Below are positions 2,281 to 18,189 of a stretch of 23,281 nt of DNA, one piece after another. Origin of the DNA: Bacteroidales bacterium (GTDB lineage Bacteria > Bacteroidota > Bacteroidia > Bacteroidales > UBA932); contig JAFXUS010000013.1 of the NCBI GenBank assembly GCA_017535125.1, positions 1-23,281 of the forward strand. Reading direction: 5' to 3'. Under the pieces are notes generated by a model. That model saw nothing but the letters and a program-made list of their open reading frames with translations, was not told the DNA's origin and ran no database searches. Each line of letters opens with the position of its first letter. The stretch's first letter is position 1. Both the position numbers and the translations under genes were made by a program.

Positions 2281-2310
2281 GAGATTCGCCGGTCAAGCCG
2301 GCGAATGACG
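2281..2310 (+). repeat. Palindromic element, GCCGG-stem subfamily, at the 3' end of the Xre gene
   Basis: Arms ATTCGCCGG (2284-2292) and CCGGCGAAT (2298-2306) enclose the loop TCAAG, with leading GAG and trailing GACG. It starts on the base after the Xre stop codon. It matches the element at 17677-17704 with one mismatch over 28 bases. The 9-bp perfect stem makes a strong RNA hairpin, but there is no T-tract after it, so a simple intrinsic terminator is not established. Confidence 0.85.
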
Positions 2311-2317
2311 GAGGGGG

Positions 2318-6191: not shown

Positions 6192-6959
6192 ATGGAAGTT
6201 CGTGCAAAAAAGGCTTTAGGCCAGCATTTCCTCACGGATCAGAGCATCGCGCGGGGTATCGTCGATGCTTTGACCGTCAGCGAGGTGAAAGACGTACTGG
6301 AGATCGGCCCCGGTATGGGTGTCCTCACCCAGTATTTGCTGCAGCGGGAGGATATTGACTTGAAGCTGGTGGAACTGGATGGGGAGTCGGTGGATTATCT
6401 GCTGACGCATTTTCCGGGGATGCAGGGACGGCTGTACCAGGCGGATTACCTGCGCCTGGACATCCATAAGCTGTTTCCGGGGGCATACCGGGTGATCGGC
6501 AATTTCCCGTACAATATTTCTTCGCAGATCTTCTTCAAGATCCTGGACGACAAGGACCGCATTCCGGAGGTGGTCTGCATGATCCAGAAGGAGGTGGCGG
6601 ACCGCATCGCCGAGGGGCCGGGCAGCAAGACCTACGGCATCCTGTCGGTGCTGCTGCAGGCCTGGTACGACATCGATTACATCATGAGCGTGGGCTCGGG
6701 TGCCTTCGCGCCGCCGCCCAAGGTGCAGTCGGCCGTGATCCGCCTGCGCCGTAACGGGCGCACCGACCTCGGCTGCGACGAGAAGCAGTTCAAGAATGTG
6801 GTGAAAACCGCGTTCAATCAGCGGCGCAAGACGCTGCGCAACGCGCTCAAGCCGCTGCTGCCGGAGGGCTTCGACAGTTCGGATCCCGTTTTCGATCTGC
6901 GCGCCGAACGGCTCGGCGTCGAGGATTTCGTCGCGCTTACGCGGCAGATTTTCGCTTAA
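6192..6959 (+). CDS. rsmA: 16S rRNA (adenine1518-N6/adenine1519-N6)-dimethyltransferase
   Basis: A 255-residue SAM-dependent enzyme that dimethylates the two adjacent adenines in the 3' hairpin of 16S rRNA during small-subunit maturation. KKALGQHFLTD (6-16) is the family N-terminal motif. SAM motif I is EIGPGMGVL (37-45) and the catalytic motif IV is NFPYNIS (104-110). The C-terminal domain has FNQRRKTLRNALKP. Length is normal. ATG 6192 immediately follows the mrp stop. The 3' end overlaps the end of the convergent yfhO-type gene by 23 bp, with no visible terminator between the two operons. Confidence 0.97.
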   Translation: MEVRAKKALGQHFLTDQSIARGIVDALTVSEVKDVLEIGPGMGVLTQYLLQREDIDLKLVELDGESVDYLLTHFPGMQGRLYQADYLRLDIHKLFPGAYRVIGNFPYNISSQIFFKILDDKDRIPEVVCMIQKEVADRIAEGPGSKTYGILSVLLQAWYDIDYIMSVGSGAFAPPPKVQSAVIRLRRNGRTDLGCDEKQFKNVVKTAFNQRRKTLRNALKPLLPEGFDSSDPVFDLRAERLGVEDFVALTRQIFA

Positions 6960-9561
6960 GCGCGGCGCCCAGGATGGCGCCGAGGGCGGCGAGGAGCAGC
7001 AGGATGGAGGTGGCGCGGGAGACTGCCTCACCGGTCCGGTAGGACGGCGGGTCGAAGCGCATCACCAGCGTGTGATCGCCGGCCGGTACCTGCGCGGCGC
7101 GCAGCAGGGTGCCTTCCAGCTCGATCGGGAGTTCTTCGCCCGTATCCTCCACCGTCAGTTTCCACCCCACGGGGTAATAGACTTCGCTGAAGACTATCCG
7201 CACGGCCTCCGGGCTGTTGTAGCGGTAGCGGAGTTCGTTGGGGGCGTAGGAGGTCAGCTCCACGCTGGGAGATTCCGGGTCAAGCCCGGAATGACTAATT
7301 GAAGGACCGGAAAGACTCTCTGTAGTCATGCCGGACCGTGATCCGGCATCTCCAAACCAGGCGTTGCCCTTGGCGTACGGATAGCGGAGCGGCGGGACAT
7401 CACCGTCCAGGATGATATACCGGCAGTTCATCTCTGCGAGGCCCGGGAGGTACGGCAGGGCGGCCTCGGCCTCTTCGAGGGTCGTGGCGTCGCCGATGGC
7501 CTTGTAAATCTGGTTGATTTCACCCGCCAGGGTGCTCTCCATGAATTCCTGGTAGCGCTGCAGTTTGGCCGGCGAATAGCCGCCGACGTTCTTGTGCCAG
7601 TAGGACGGATGCGAGTCGTTGAAGACGTTGACCGTCAGGTCCAGGACGCGGTAGGACGGGTCCGTGTCGGCGAGGATCAGCTCGTCGACCGGGCGCTTGT
7701 CGAACTGGCTCTTGAAGGCGCGCGGCGAGACGAAATCGTCCGCGTTCAGGTAACGTTTGCCGGCGATGCCGAGGTCCAGCAGCACGAGGAGCGAGATCAG
7801 CGCGACGGCGGTCAGGCGACGGGCCTGCGCCGTCTCAGGATGCGTCCGGAAGGTCTCCGCGGCCGATTTCGGGACGGAAGTGCCCCACCATAGCAGCAGG
7901 AAGGATGCGAGGATCAGGATCAGCGAGCGCATGGCGTCCAGGACCAGCAGGTAGCGGCGGTCCGCCGCGAGGGCGTCCACCAGCACGTCCGGCTGACCTG
8001 CATCAACGCTGCCGCTGAAGGTCCCGGCGATGCCGGGGAAAATCATGCAGAGCAGGCAGAAGCCGCCGGTGATGGCGGCCGCGATCCAGCCTTTCTTCTG
8101 GAAAAACGCCGCCGCTTCCGGCTGGCGGACGATGCGGTCCAGCACCAGGAAGCCGAGCATCGGCAGGGTGAACTGGAGCACTGTCAGCGCCATCGACACC
8201 GTGCGGAACTTGTTGTAGAGCGGCGCGACGTTGTAGAAGAATTTCGTGAAAGCGAGGAAATGACTGCCCAGGGCGAGCAGCACGGCGAGCACTGTGCCCG
8301 CCACGATCCACCATTTCTCCTTCCCCTTGAAGGCGAAGAGGCCTAGCACGAAGAGGAAGATGGTGATGGCGCCCATGTACATCGGCCCGGCGGTGAAGGG
8401 CTGGGGGCCCCAGTAGAGCGGCAGGTGCTTGGCCGTCTCCCGGAGGTTCGGCTGCCCGGCCCGCTTCAGGAGGTCGTAGGTTTCGGAGTGGTTGGGATTT
8501 ACCGCGCCGGAGGACGAGCCGCCGTTGAAATTGGGGATCAGCAGGTTGGGGAGTTCTTCCCAGCCGTAGGACCAGGCGGTGGCGTAGTCGATGTCGAGGC
8601 CTTTGGCGCCGACACCGCCTTCGGAGGCTTCCGTGCTGCCGCCGCGCATGGAGTACGGAGTGTATTCCATCGTCGGCAGGAGCTTGATGGCGTTGGTGGC
8701 AATGCCGGCCACGCCGAGGACCAGCAGCAAAGCCGATGCAGCGAAGAAGCGGCCCCAGGGATGAGATTCCGGGTCAAGCCCGGAATGACTATCTGTAGTC
8801 ATGCCGGACTGCGATCCGGCATCTCTATGCACCAGCAAAGAAACCACCAGGACGATGACGTAGATCAGGATCAGGATTGCCAGATAGTAGGTGATCTGCG
8901 GGTGGTTTGCCTTGACCTGGAAACTCAGCGCCAGGCCGAAGAGGGCGGCGCCGAGAAGGGTTCCCGGGAGCCAGGGTGCTTTGCTAGGAGATTCCGGGTC
9001 AAGCCCGGAATGACTACTTTGGGGCCCGGAATGACTACTTTGGGGTCCGGAATGACGGGAAAGGGCCTGATTATAAGTGAAGATCAGCGCTGCCAAAACC
9101 CAGGGGAGGAAGGCGAGGGCCTGCATCTTGGTGTTGTGGCCGACCTGGATAATCTGCAGGTTGTAGGAGCAGAAGGTCACGGCGATGGCGCCGCCAACGG
9201 CGATCAGCGGATGGATGCCGAGGGCGAGCATCAGCAGCCAGGCGCCCAGCAGCGAGATGAAGAGGTAGGTGGCCGGGCGGCGGCCCAGCAGCAGGAAGTC
9301 GTAGAGCTTCTGCGTCCAGTCGCCTTTCGTGGAGGCATGGATGGTGGCCGTCGGCATGCCGCCGAACATGGACTCCGTCCAGGCCGTCTGGTCATCGGGG
9401 TGAGCTGCGTTCCAGCTCATCATCTCGTGCGACATGCCCTGCCAGCCGGAGATGTCGCTCTGGTTGACGATCTTGCCGCTCAGGACCTGCGGCACGTAGG
9501 CGTATGAGAGAAGGAGCAGGCCGACGACGATGCCGGCGTACAGGAGGAGTTTCTTTTTCAT
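6937..9561 (-). CDS. YfhO-family polytopic membrane protein with three in-frame repeat insertions
   Basis: An 874-residue integral membrane protein of the YfhO family, with GT-C-like topology: a first TM (KKKLLLYAGIVVGLLLLSYA), then an extracytoplasmic loop with DISGWQGMSHEM, about a dozen TM segments, a soluble region from about residue 620 to 840, and a last TM near the end (LLLLAALGAILGAAL). In Firmicutes YfhO is linked to glycosylation of cell-envelope polymers; the substrate here is unknown. Residues about 169-191, 247-266 and 738-764 are encoded by palindromic elements. Their recurrent peptide is HSGLDPES, and two also carry DAGS-S-GMTT. These inserts of about 70 residues explain most of the excess over typical Bacteroidales homologues of around 800 residues. 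The ATG overlaps the glycosyltransferase stop (ATGA). It is the last gene of its operon. Confidence 0.9.
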   Translation of the reverse strand: MKKKLLLYAGIVVGLLLLSYAYVPQVLSGKIVNQSDISGWQGMSHEMMSWNAAHPDDQTAWTESMFGGMPTATIHASTKGDWTQKLYDFLLLGRRPATYLFISLLGAWLLMLALGIHPLIAVGGAIAVTFCSYNLQIIQVGHNTKMQALAFLPWVLAALIFTYNQALSRHSGPQSSHSGPQSSHSGLDPESPSKAPWLPGTLLGAALFGLALSFQVKANHPQITYYLAILILIYVIVLVVSLLVHRDAGSQSGMTTDSHSGLDPESHPWGRFFAASALLLVLGVAGIATNAIKLLPTMEYTPYSMRGGSTEASEGGVGAKGLDIDYATAWSYGWEELPNLLIPNFNGGSSSGAVNPNHSETYDLLKRAGQPNLRETAKHLPLYWGPQPFTAGPMYMGAITIFLFVLGLFAFKGKEKWWIVAGTVLAVLLALGSHFLAFTKFFYNVAPLYNKFRTVSMALTVLQFTLPMLGFLVLDRIVRQPEAAAFFQKKGWIAAAITGGFCLLCMIFPGIAGTFSGSVDAGQPDVLVDALAADRRYLLVLDAMRSLILILASFLLLWWGTSVPKSAAETFRTHPETAQARRLTAVALISLLVLLDLGIAGKRYLNADDFVSPRAFKSQFDKRPVDELILADTDPSYRVLDLTVNVFNDSHPSYWHKNVGGYSPAKLQRYQEFMESTLAGEINQIYKAIGDATTLEEAEAALPYLPGLAEMNCRYIILDGDVPPLRYPYAKGNAWFGDAGSRSGMTTESLSGPSISHSGLDPESPSVELTSYAPNELRYRYNSPEAVRIVFSEVYYPVGWKLTVEDTGEELPIELEGTLLRAAQVPAGDHTLVMRFDPPSYRTGEAVSRATSILLLLAALGAILGAALKRKSAA
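7269..7350. repeat. Composite palindromic element inside yfhO (copy with one extra 21-nt unit)
   Basis: 82 bp. The first stem is ATTCCGGG, loop TCAAG, CCCGGAAT. Then comes a 21-nt half-unit ending in CCGGAAAGACT, a degenerate copy. An inverted stem of ATGCCGGA and TCCGGCAT lies around 7328-7349. The length equals that of the 61-bp copies at 8763 and 10082 plus one 21-nt unit. It encodes about residues 738-764 of the YfhO-type protein, just before the conserved-looking ELTSYAPNELRYRY segment. Confidence 0.85.
8763..8823. repeat. Composite palindromic element inside yfhO (61 bp, three stems)
   Basis: Three inverted repeats in a row: ATTCCGGG/CCCGGAAT (8766-8773, 8779-8786) with loop TCAAG; GACTA/TAGTC (8787-8791, 8796-8800) with loop TCTG; ATGCCGGA/TCCGGCAT (8801-8808, 8815-8822) with loop CTGCGA. 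It is identical to 10082-10142 at 60 of 61 positions. It encodes about residues 247-266, in a loop between a TM ending VVSLLVHR and one starting FFAASALLL. Confidence 0.92.
8988..9056. repeat. Palindromic element with tandem 21-nt half-units inside yfhO
   Basis: One full stem (ATTCCGGG, TCAAG, CCCGGAAT), then tandem 21-nt units starting at 9004 and 9025 (CCCGGAATGACTACTTTGGGG each, with a partial third from 9046). The inverted ATGCCGGA stem found in the other copies is absent. On the coding strand this gives a seven-residue repeat HSGPQSS twice, then HSGLDPES, at about residues 169-191, in a loop between TM segments. Confidence 0.9.
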
Positions 9562-10847
9562 GGCAATATATCGACGAGCTGCGCCGTGAGGGCGCGGCGG
9601 CTGTACTTTTCAATGCCGGCCGTCTGCGGATGCTCCGCGTCCAGGAAGGCCAGCAGTTCGTCCTGCTTGTCCCAGTCGAACATGTCGCCGGCGCCGGCGT
9701 CCCGCAGGACCGTGGCGGCCGCGCCGTCTTCCTGGCCGATGCCCAGCACGGGGCGGCGGGCGGCCAGGTATTCGAAGATCTTGCCGGGCAGCACTTTCGC
9801 GTATTCGGGCTCCCGGCGCAGCGGGAGCAGAAGGATGTCGGCGGCGCGCTGCTCGCGGACGGTCTCGTCGTGCGGGAGATAGCCCAGCTCCACGAGATTG
9901 CCGCCCAGGCCGCGGGCGCGGATGGCGTCCGTGATGGCGGCGTCCACCTTGCCGGCAAGGCGGATTTCCAGCCGCTCGCGGAAGGACGGATCCTCCCCGC
10001 AGCGGCGCGCCAGGGCGTCCCAGAGGTTCAGGGGGTTGCCGTCGGCCGCAAACAGGCCCGTATGGACCAGGCGGAACTTGGGAGATTCCGAGTCAAGCCC
10101 GGAATGACTATCTGTAGTCATGCCGGACTGCGATCCGGCATCCTTAAAATCGGATTCGTCAAAGCCGTTGGTAATCAAAACGACCGGGGTTTTGGTCTTG
10201 GCACGGAAGTCCGCGGCGACGGGCGGCGACACACTGATCACGGTGTCGGCGCCGTCCAGTACGGCCTGCTCGAGGCGGTGGTGCCGGCGGTCAGCGGCGG
10301 CCGACAGGCCGAGGTGCTTGTAGTAGAACATCTCCGTCCACGGATCCCGGAAATCAGCAATCCAATGCAGCCCAAGGGCCTTTTTCAGCCCCAGGCCGAT
10401 GAGGTGCACCGACTGGGGCGGACCCGTGGTCACGACGGCATCGACGGGATGCTCCGCCAGGTATTTCTTCAGGAACCGGACCGAGGGGCGCACCCAGCCG
10501 ACCCGCGGGTCGGGAATGAAGCAGTTACCCCGCACCCACAGGGAGAGGCGCTGCTTCCAGTTTTTCTTCTGGGCGTTGACGGGGTTGACTTCCTGCCCCT
10601 GTTTGCCGCCGGTCAGGCGGCGATAGATCTCATATGGCTCGCTGATGTGCGTCTTGACGACTTCCGCGCAGGCGGGAACGTCGGCGAGCAGGCTCTCGTC
10701 GCGCGCGAGCTGTTCGGGATTCTCCGGCGTATAGACGACCGGCTGCCAGCCGAACTCCGGCAGGTACTTGCTGAACTTCACCCAGCGCTGGACCCCCGAA
10801 CCACCGGTCGGGGGCCAGTAGTAGGTGATGATCAGCAGACGTTTCAC
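9558..10847 (-). CDS. GT-B-fold glycosyltransferase, probably GT4 family, with an in-frame repeat insertion
   Basis: A 429-residue cytoplasmic or membrane-associated sugar transferase. The N-terminal Rossmann domain starts LLIITYYWPPTGGSGVQRWV, with a typical glycine-rich loop. DFRDPWTEM and GPPQSVHL lie before the interdomain region. The C-terminal domain has the nucleotide-sugar site segment PGKIFEYLAARRPVLGIG with the conserved Glu. Residues about 236-255 come from a palindromic element placed between ITNGFDESDFK and KFRLVHTG, the usual linker between the two Rossmann domains. GTG start at 10847-10845 overlaps the phosphatase TGA by 4 nt, and its own TGA overlaps the yfhO ATG by 4 nt. Donor and acceptor are unknown. 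The neighbouring YfhO-type protein suggests a shared role in envelope glycan synthesis. Confidence 0.88.
   Translation of the reverse strand: MKRLLIITYYWPPTGGSGVQRWVKFSKYLPEFGWQPVVYTPENPEQLARDESLLADVPACAEVVKTHISEPYEIYRRLTGGKQGQEVNPVNAQKKNWKQRLSLWVRGNCFIPDPRVGWVRPSVRFLKKYLAEHPVDAVVTTGPPQSVHLIGLGLKKALGLHWIADFRDPWTEMFYYKHLGLSAAADRRHHRLEQAVLDGADTVISVSPPVAADFRAKTKTPVVLITNGFDESDFKDAGSQSGMTTDSHSGLDSESPKFRLVHTGLFAADGNPLNLWDALARRCGEDPSFRERLEIRLAGKVDAAITDAIRARGLGGNLVELGYLPHDETVREQRAADILLLPLRREPEYAKVLPGKIFEYLAARRPVLGIGQEDGAAATVLRDAGAGDMFDWDKQDELLAFLDAEHPQTAGIEKYSRRALTAQLVDILP
10082..10142. repeat. Composite palindromic element inside the glycosyltransferase gene
   Basis: 61 bp, identical to 8763-8823 except for one base in the first stem: ATTCCGAG instead of ATTCCGGG, which breaks one pair. 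It is read in the same orientation and frame as the copies in yfhO, giving DAGSQSGMTT and DSHSGLDSES. It sits in the linker between the two GT-B domains. Confidence 0.92.
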
Positions 10848-14848: not shown

Positions 14849-14883
14849 AAAAATAATTGGAGATTCCGGGTCAAGCCCGGAAT
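14849..14883 (-). terminator. Candidate intrinsic terminator built from a palindromic element, downstream of the symporter pair
   Basis: Read on the minus strand, the stem ATTCCGGG/CCCGGAAT (14883-14876 and 14870-14863, loop CTTGA) is followed by CTCC and then the T-rich run AATTATTTTT (14858-14849). This lies between the symporter stop (14930) and the mutS -7 box (14847). The CTCC gap between stem and T-run weakens the case. Confidence 0.35.
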
Positions 14884-14907
14884 GACTACAAAGGAGCCCG
14901 GAATGAC
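14859..14907. repeat. Intergenic palindromic element with one 21-nt half-unit
   Basis: The stem ATTCCGGG, loop TCAAG, CCCGGAAT (14863-14883) is followed by a 21-nt half-unit GACTACAAAGGAGCCCGGAAT (14884-14904) in two parts, then GAC. A separate 6-bp hairpin TCCCGG, loop TGC, CCGGGA lies at 14910-14924, 5 nt past the symporter stop. The 105-bp gap 14825-14929 is almost wholly occupied by these hairpins and the mutS promoter. Confidence 0.85.
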
Positions 14908-14929
14908 GGTCCCGGTGCCCGGGAACGCG

Positions 14930-17662: not shown

Positions 17663-17676
17663 ACACTACCGTTTAC

Positions 17677-17704
17677 CGTCATTCGCCGGCCTGACCGGCG
17701 AATC
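17677..17704 (-). repeat. Palindromic element, GCCGG-stem subfamily, at the 3' end of folA
   Basis: On the minus strand it reads GATTCGCCGG, then TCAG, then GCCGGCGAAT and GACG. It begins on the base after the folA TAA (17707-17705). It matches 2283-2310 at 27 of 28 positions, and the change (A to G) is in the loop. The stem is 9 bp or more. Confidence 0.87.
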
Positions 17705-18189
17705 TTATCGTTTCACGTACGTCACGAACTCGTACTCGAGTCCGGAATCGGGATCCTTCAGGAGCCCGGAACGCGCCTCAACCGTCCAAATATCGGAATT
17801 AATTTCCGGAAAATACGCATCCGCGTCCGGAATCGTCGTCCGGATCTGCGTGACGAACAGGCGGTCCATCGTGTCGATGGCGGCCTGGTACACCGACGCG
17901 CCGCCGATCACGAACACGCGCGGCGCGTCCCCCGCGGCGGCATACGCCGCCTCGATCGAGGCCACGCACGTAGCCCCTTCGATCGGCTCGGAGCGGCGTG
18001 TCAGCACGATGTTCTGCCGCCCGGGCAGGGGCCGGCCGATCGACTCGAAGGTCGTCCGCCCCATGATCACGGGACAACCCATCGTGATCCGCTTGAAGTA
18101 CTGCAGATCCGCTTTCAAGTGCCAGGGCATGGTGCCGCCCCGGCCGATGGCGCGGTCCTGCGCCGCCGCCACGATCATGCACTTCTCCA

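Follow-up and report, generated by a model that had tools for sequence, protein, structure and literature searches.

How does almost the same 61 bp of palindromic DNA come to stand within the reading frames of two neighbouring, unrelated genes? The question arises in a stretch of 23,281 nucleotides from a Bacteroidales bacterium (contig JAFXUS010000013.1 of assembly GCA_017535125.1; the whole stretch is called the window below), where the gene of a yfhO-like membrane protein of 874 aa (6937..9561, minus strand; Pfam YfhO match under the gathering score) adjoins that of a 429-aa glycosyltransferase (GT; 9558..10847, minus strand). The elements at 8763-8823 and 10082-10142, one in each gene, differ by a single mismatch at the tenth base (G/A), and the 20 bases on either side show no relation between the copies, which bears out the 60/61 identity in unrelated genes that an earlier sequence-only reading of the window had picked out. 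We consider it probable that they are repetitive extragenic palindromic (REP) elements of the CGTC type, dispersed in trans, which persist inside genes only where they add an open-frame, disordered peptide to a loop or linker.

On sequence grounds we regard these elements as real and as similar in behaviour to the Rickettsia palindromic elements (RPE). Allowing up to three mismatches, the window holds five matches to a 25-nt unit and three to a 26-nt unit, against none in dinucleotide-shuffle controls, which excludes a chance origin of the repeats. Each 61-mer consists of two hairpins whose GTC heads point at each other (a head-to-head dimer), with the coding strand GATGCCGGATCGCAGTCCGGCATGAC - TACAGATA - GTCATTCCGGGCTTGAC[C/T]CGGAATC, and the two copies give z scores of -6.6 and -4.4 in DNA folding. 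Their minus-strand translation, in frame in both genes, is DAGSQSGMTTDSHSGLD[P/S]ES. The shared orientation and frame described earlier are thus present, but the frame is forced by stop codons: the 61-mer has only one open frame on each strand, so that any in-frame copy in the same orientation encodes the same peptide. The shared frame is weak evidence, and only the shared orientation is informative, at about 1 in 2. A GT that is 99% identical to that of the window (P0004) has DPES at the differing codon, which is the yfhO reading, so that the single mismatch is probably peculiar to the window strain.

The two elements are joined by two further intragenic ones, making three in yfhO and one in the GT gene, where the sequence-only reading had counted two in all. 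All four lie on the minus strand. E2 (8763..8823) is the head-to-head dimer in yfhO loop B and reads DAGSQSGMTTDSHSGLDPES; E4 (10082..10142) is that in the GT interdomain linker and reads DAGSQSGMTTDSHSGLDSES; E1 (7269..7350) is a dimer in a longer version in loop C, reading DAGSRSGMTTESLSGPSISHSGLDPES; and E3 (8988..9057), in loop A, combines a full REP with two 21-bp tandem half-units and reads RHSGPQSSHSGPQSSHSGLDPES. The tandem part of loop A (9002-9056) has a length divisible by three and suggests growth by slippage within the gene. In the AlphaFold2 model of the GT, the insert (residues 238-253) is placed between the two domains with a predicted local distance difference test score (pLDDT) below 50, in agreement with the linker position proposed before; the YfhO model, with a mean pLDDT of 56.7, is too poor for placing loops. 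Outgroup orthologues of the host proteins have short native loops at the insertion sites, and the finding of the same residues in distant orthologues, which had been named as a reason to doubt insertion, was not made. The three remaining elements of this type in the window, seven in all, are intergenic: E5 (14860..14908, minus strand), a REP plus half-unit between mutS and a transporter gene; E6 (2282..2311, minus strand), a unit with the stem ATTCGCCGG; and E7 (17676..17705, plus strand), which has the same stem and a CGTC tag. Seven of the ten REP units of the window lie in genes, a share that is atypical, and three of the ten classic hairpin units are partners with a 6-nt loop. An Rfam search of the window gave no match, nor did the 61-mer match plasmid sequences.

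To which class do the elements belong? The sequence-only reading knew of no such system in Bacteroidota; this cannot be upheld, as a 2013 paper (PMC3733652) already described CGTC-tagged REPs from five phyla, Bacteroidetes among them. In the part of that paper drawn on here, the stem of such a unit begins with AT and has 8-9 bp, the loop measures 4-5 nt, an unpaired CGTC (often TGTC or CCTC) stands at one end and the tail is short, most but not all tails fitting CCA; the units form mainly head-to-head dimers, have intragenic in-frame copies in several species and are apparently without a dedicated transposase, and to their superfamily belong Neisseria dRS3 as well as RPE-4 and RPE-6 of Rickettsia. 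By this description, which compares sequence features, we class each window element as a dimer of CGTC-type REP palindromes, mostly head-to-head. The AT-led stem of class length is directly visible in the window units, the window dimers carrying an AGTC tag. We counted 146 distinct units in retrieved DNA after repeated contexts and units less than 30 bases from a locus end had been dropped, a score of 25 being required for intragenic calls. Their tags were CGTC in 83, AGTC in 49, TGTC in 11 and GGTC in 3, the GTC having been imposed by the search itself; stems were of 8-9 bp in 145 units (an AT start and a length of 8-10 were likewise imposed) and perfect in 127. The loop measured 4-5 nt in 112 units and 6 nt, as in the second unit of the window dimer, in 26, and dimers within 40 bases were head-to-head in 10 cases, tail-to-tail in 4 and head-to-tail in 2 (n = 16). 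The likeness to the published class extends from a GTC-type tag, stem, loop and dimer form to genome-wide spread, in-frame intragenic copies and the lack of a dedicated transposase. The elements differ from it in the A that opens the tag of 49 of the 146 units, in a tail that is CTC (89/146) instead of CCA, and in occupying loops also used by unrelated palindromic families.

A YfhO search retrieved 80 related loci. A tree of YfhO and GT places the window together with L001, within a clade that has 14 relatives in it; most of these come from the rumen or from other stomach samples. We compared 15 close genomes (G001-G015, the source of L001-L012, L019, L025 and L058) and three outgroup genomes, all of them metagenome assemblies. 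With up to two mismatches the 25-nt unit occurs in 13 of the 15 close genomes, in 2 to 76 copies, and in none of the outgroups, and a reversed-pattern control gave no match in any of the 18. In the relatives the unit is therefore genome-wide and not confined to this locus, the second outcome that had been named as speaking against a dispersed element. Hit-centred loci and the stretches of G003 are biased towards repeats, and only the stretches of G006 are free of that bias. There, 400 kb not chosen for repeats contained 23 hairpins, 14 of them intergenic, 7 within genes and 2 at the edge of a gene, against 3 hits for a control head. Since the coding share called in these stretches is 84% and 93%, most intragenic insertions have presumably been removed; genes were called by our own codon-score script, which misses gene fragments at locus ends. 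Beyond these genomes, ten stretches of viral contigs contain the exact 25-nt unit, and IMGVR_UViG_3300003667_000196, filed as viral (L254, L260), holds ten exact copies and may be host DNA or an unusual element. An in-frame REP of another type, reading CHPEPVEGS, was seen at L119:5955-6983 and in the DapF loop of G005 (L271). Rfam searches of 12 loci, at E values up to 0.1, returned only tRNAs and weak sub-threshold matches, all in L084.

The sites that hold the REPs (family I) also hold other palindromes: unrelated families occur at the same YfhO loops, at the same GT linker and in one DapF loop. Family II, a 95-nt palindrome, occurs in both orientations, with 33 matches spread over 8 of the 18 genomes; family III is a hairpin of 90 nt that gave 11 matches, in 7 genomes; and family IV is modular and present in 15 genomes. 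None of the three was found in the three outgroups. At 15 loci (the window, L001-L012, L019 and L025), 33 of the 34 intragenic matches to families I-III lie in YfhO loops A, B or C or in the GT linker, a concentration which is not an independent test as the locus was picked because of the finding. All of these loci except L008 and L019 have at least one such match (13/15). The sole intragenic match outside the four loops, 29 bp of family II in L005, was taken as chance. Thirty of the 33 family II matches were examined: 17 fall within called genes, one is at a gene edge and 12 were called intergenic, yet three of these 12 (L170, L171 and L177) lie within YfhO loop C. Ten of the 11 family III loci are inside genes. 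Other hosts, named by best NCBIfam matches of which several fall under the family cut-off (genes cut or divergent), are DapF, LigA near its C-terminus, an ABC-F protein, a ManA-like protein, PyrK, AmpG, MetH, Fmt, a gyrase/topoisomerase A subunit, LeuC, FtsK and a radical SAM protein. We read the DapF loop that follows CGTG as an independent case of loop sharing: it holds family I in G003, family II in G008 and G014 and family III in G001 and G007; remnants of family III are present in G003 and G010, and G005 and G013 have repeats of other kinds, as judged by eye. In outgroups G017 and G018 the loop is shorter and native. DapF loop sequences were extracted for 7 of the 19 loci. The dapF frame of G003 (L142:7471-9441) continues into an aminotransferase-like region, giving a 656-aa call with DapF and MocR/aminotransferase models that may be a fusion or an open read-through; open frames of more than 500 aa were also seen in G007, G008 and G011. 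Families III and IV have a common end, CTCCACAACGCC, seen in L182, L211 and places in G001.

The contents of these loops differ between host proteins that are otherwise nearly identical, as was found among the best 120 of 7946 GT homologues and the best 120 of 5791 YfhO homologues, ranked by likeness to the window proteins. The GT group of the window comprises 11 proteins whose identity outside the linker is 96.5% or more, the linker itself holding several unrelated repeats: the dimer in P0002 and P0004, a shortened form in P0005 and P0006, another REP stem in P0007 and P0008, family II forward in P0010 and reverse in P0009, P0012 and P0013, and a further composite in P0014. In another group, of 29 GTs, three are without the family III hairpin and 13 with the same neighbouring residues keep it. 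Among the 120 YfhO homologues, the 20-residue bins over loops A-C account for 0.74 of the length variation, the remainder being mainly at 560-579 and the C-terminus, and a group of 20 YfhO proteins at least 94.2% identical outside the loops shows 12 different sets of loops, the difference in some cases being confined to substitutions. The class and its in-frame habit were already known; turnover at shared sites is apparently new. Searches of open-licence PubMed Central, whose scope excludes papers behind subscription and the supplement of PMC3733652, brought up no account of intragenic families of this kind in Bacteroidales, nor of several unrelated families sharing loops; one shared insertion site, in recB of two Xanthomonas species, is noted in PMC3733652.

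How the stems are kept can be asked of families II and III, with the caution that covariation cells count sequences and not events. In nine family III copies, two-sided changes fill 26 cells at 13 of 28 pairs, with no one-sided wobble and 5 broken or gapped cells; in 22 family II copies, which are aligned with inverted ends, they fill 56 cells at 11 of 30 pairs, with 2 one-sided wobbles and 16 broken or gapped cells. Selection on RNA would be expected to leave wobble intermediates, and hairpin-templated DNA correction or a swap for another perfect copy would not, so that the near-absence of wobble pairs suggests that the stems are maintained at the DNA level. At one GT site, six family III copies show two-sided stem changes while the encoded peptide drifts. 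Outside the conserved ends, 20 family II copies show copy-specific complementarity of their flanks (mean 7.8/12 against 6.42, sd 0.25, for re-paired flanks; reached in none of 5000 shuffles; e.g. L158:1501-1595 and L167:1501-1586), which would fit insertion into palindromes and arm growth by templating equally.

We propose that the REPs spread through the genome in trans, presumably by transposition or recombination; that selection would remove most intragenic insertions, leaving those in open frames of flexible segments, where they would add a disordered and nearly neutral peptide; and that elements would then be lost by hairpin deletion, kept in stem by processes at the DNA level, and swapped by renewed insertion or allelic recombination. 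This agrees with the RPE-like behaviour first suggested, a dispersed palindrome in frame in tolerated segments and still turning over. Several observations weigh against the proposal. The unit is missing, at up to two mismatches, from 2 of the 15 close genomes and, at up to one mismatch, from 88 of 101 genomes sampled within the G006 genus (13 had it), and its genome-wide dispersal is shown for relatives only. Turnover was read from proteins, and no filled and empty pair on otherwise identical DNA was seen. No constant direct repeat or target-site duplication was found in 20 family II copies, nor was a mover: counts of Y1 transposase genes show no link to copy number, and IS110 (PF01548) was found in 0 of the 18 metagenome assemblies, which may be incomplete, with 4 of 14 control genomes positive. 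More tentatively, the loops may be shared landing pads where a DNA-hairpin process with no dedicated transposase inserts, removes and exchanges unrelated palindromes at near-strain timescales, elements entering at or growing from palindromic flanks and stems being kept by hairpin-templated correction.

The most serious alternative to dispersal in trans, though in our view one with the odds somewhat against it, is that loop and linker variants spread chiefly by homologous exchange of host-gene segments among related species and not by fresh insertion. The host flanks are similar enough to recombine, and P0101 combines the left part of a P0095-type linker with the hairpin of P0093 and P0094. Exchange alone cannot create the same families in unrelated genes, however, and these must have moved between sites at some time. 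It is rather doubtful that the 60/61 identity reflects a local event, by gene conversion or short-range copying, with little bearing on genome-wide mobility: the window copies are only 1.3 kb apart and, among the 16 dimers found, they alone share their spacer, but they have nothing common in their flanks and a dimer in a methionine-synthase gene of G006 is 91% identical over the 61 bases.

That RAYT-type Y1 transposases (REP-associated tyrosine transposases) mobilise these palindromes, a machinery also suggested by the sequence-only reading, seems unlikely. Matches to PF01797 (RAYT/TnpA-like) occur in 14 of the 15 close genomes and no outgroup; a family I-type unit is present in 4 of 30 Y1 loci, directly downstream of the gene in L196 and L207; and a family IV copy lies less than 0.8 kb from both Y1 matches of G001, for which a rough estimate from copy density gives about 0.002 by chance. 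The number of Y1 matches does not follow family I copy number, however (rho -0.24, p 0.39, 15 genomes), G005 has no match yet 8 units and 21 family IV matches, and one G003 match (L192) resembles a common IS200 transposase truncated where its contig stops. Furthermore, Y1 genes of about 300 aa in L194, L202, L209, L214 and L215 (G014, G010, G009, G011 and G008) are bracketed, by eye, by genome-specific inverted repeats of their own, unlike families I-IV (L197, without coordinates, was left out of the 30 loci; L192, L193 and L219 were absent from the inspection of brackets). The GTAG-tagged REPs that go with RAYTs share with the present elements the palindromic units, the dimers and the presence of Y1 genes; here the tag is GTC before AT, not GTAG, family I has no clear RAYT partner, and, in what is cited here of PMC3733652, no RAYT in CGTC-bearing species has flanking CGTC units. 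Far less probable is a role of the hairpins as mRNA elements, for example in translation pausing at domain borders. Their stable folds and location in linkers and loops would fit, but stem changes leave almost no wobble pairs (0 against 26 in family III, 2 against 56 in family II), the families are unrelated and in both orientations, and near-identical proteins do without hairpins. An assembly artefact, which might be feared when every compared genome is a metagenome assembly, is hardly credible: the exact window YfhO protein occurs on six contigs, perhaps including the window's own, which speaks against misassembly, P0124 is a 99.9% copy with the same loops, and frames are kept throughout.

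Outside the CGTC class itself, the dispersed REPs we propose resemble the RPEs, which, as far as the cited parts of PMC2229807 describe them, also add in-frame peptide to conserved proteins, apparently tolerated. The comparison is by behaviour and, for membership, only by the CGTC link of PMC3733652, and there was no Rfam match. The RPEs are described as 105-146 bp long and from obligate intracellular bacteria, unlike the 61-bp REP dimer and longer families of gut Bacteroidales, where in addition the repeat at one site is replaced between near-identical proteins. Families II and III measure about 90-95 nt, have inverted ends and include intragenic copies that stay in frame, features in which they are similar to miniature inverted-repeat transposable elements such as ERIC/RU and Correia (PMC2229807, in part); they differ in that family II showed no constant target-site duplication. 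Inverted repeats also lie within protein-coding genes of Nematomorpha mitochondria, but there, in the portion of PMC6649704 cited, both arms encode conserved residues, whereas here dispersed repeats fill variable loops.

In PMC3733652, to the extent cited, how CGTC REPs move has been an open question at least since 2013. Among the host proteins of the clade, ordinary and essential enzymes exist in many nearly identical versions whose sites are filled, shortened or replaced, and DNA from strain pairs of the clade could expose insertion junctions, deletion footprints and stem correction directly. It is also a natural experiment in how readily conserved proteins take loop inserts of 20-30 residues, and a warning that peptides like SHSGLDPES or DAGSQSGMT are hitch-hiking DNA and not domains. 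If the loops are indeed landing pads, a protein loop would be repeatedly rewritten while the rest of the protein stays constant.

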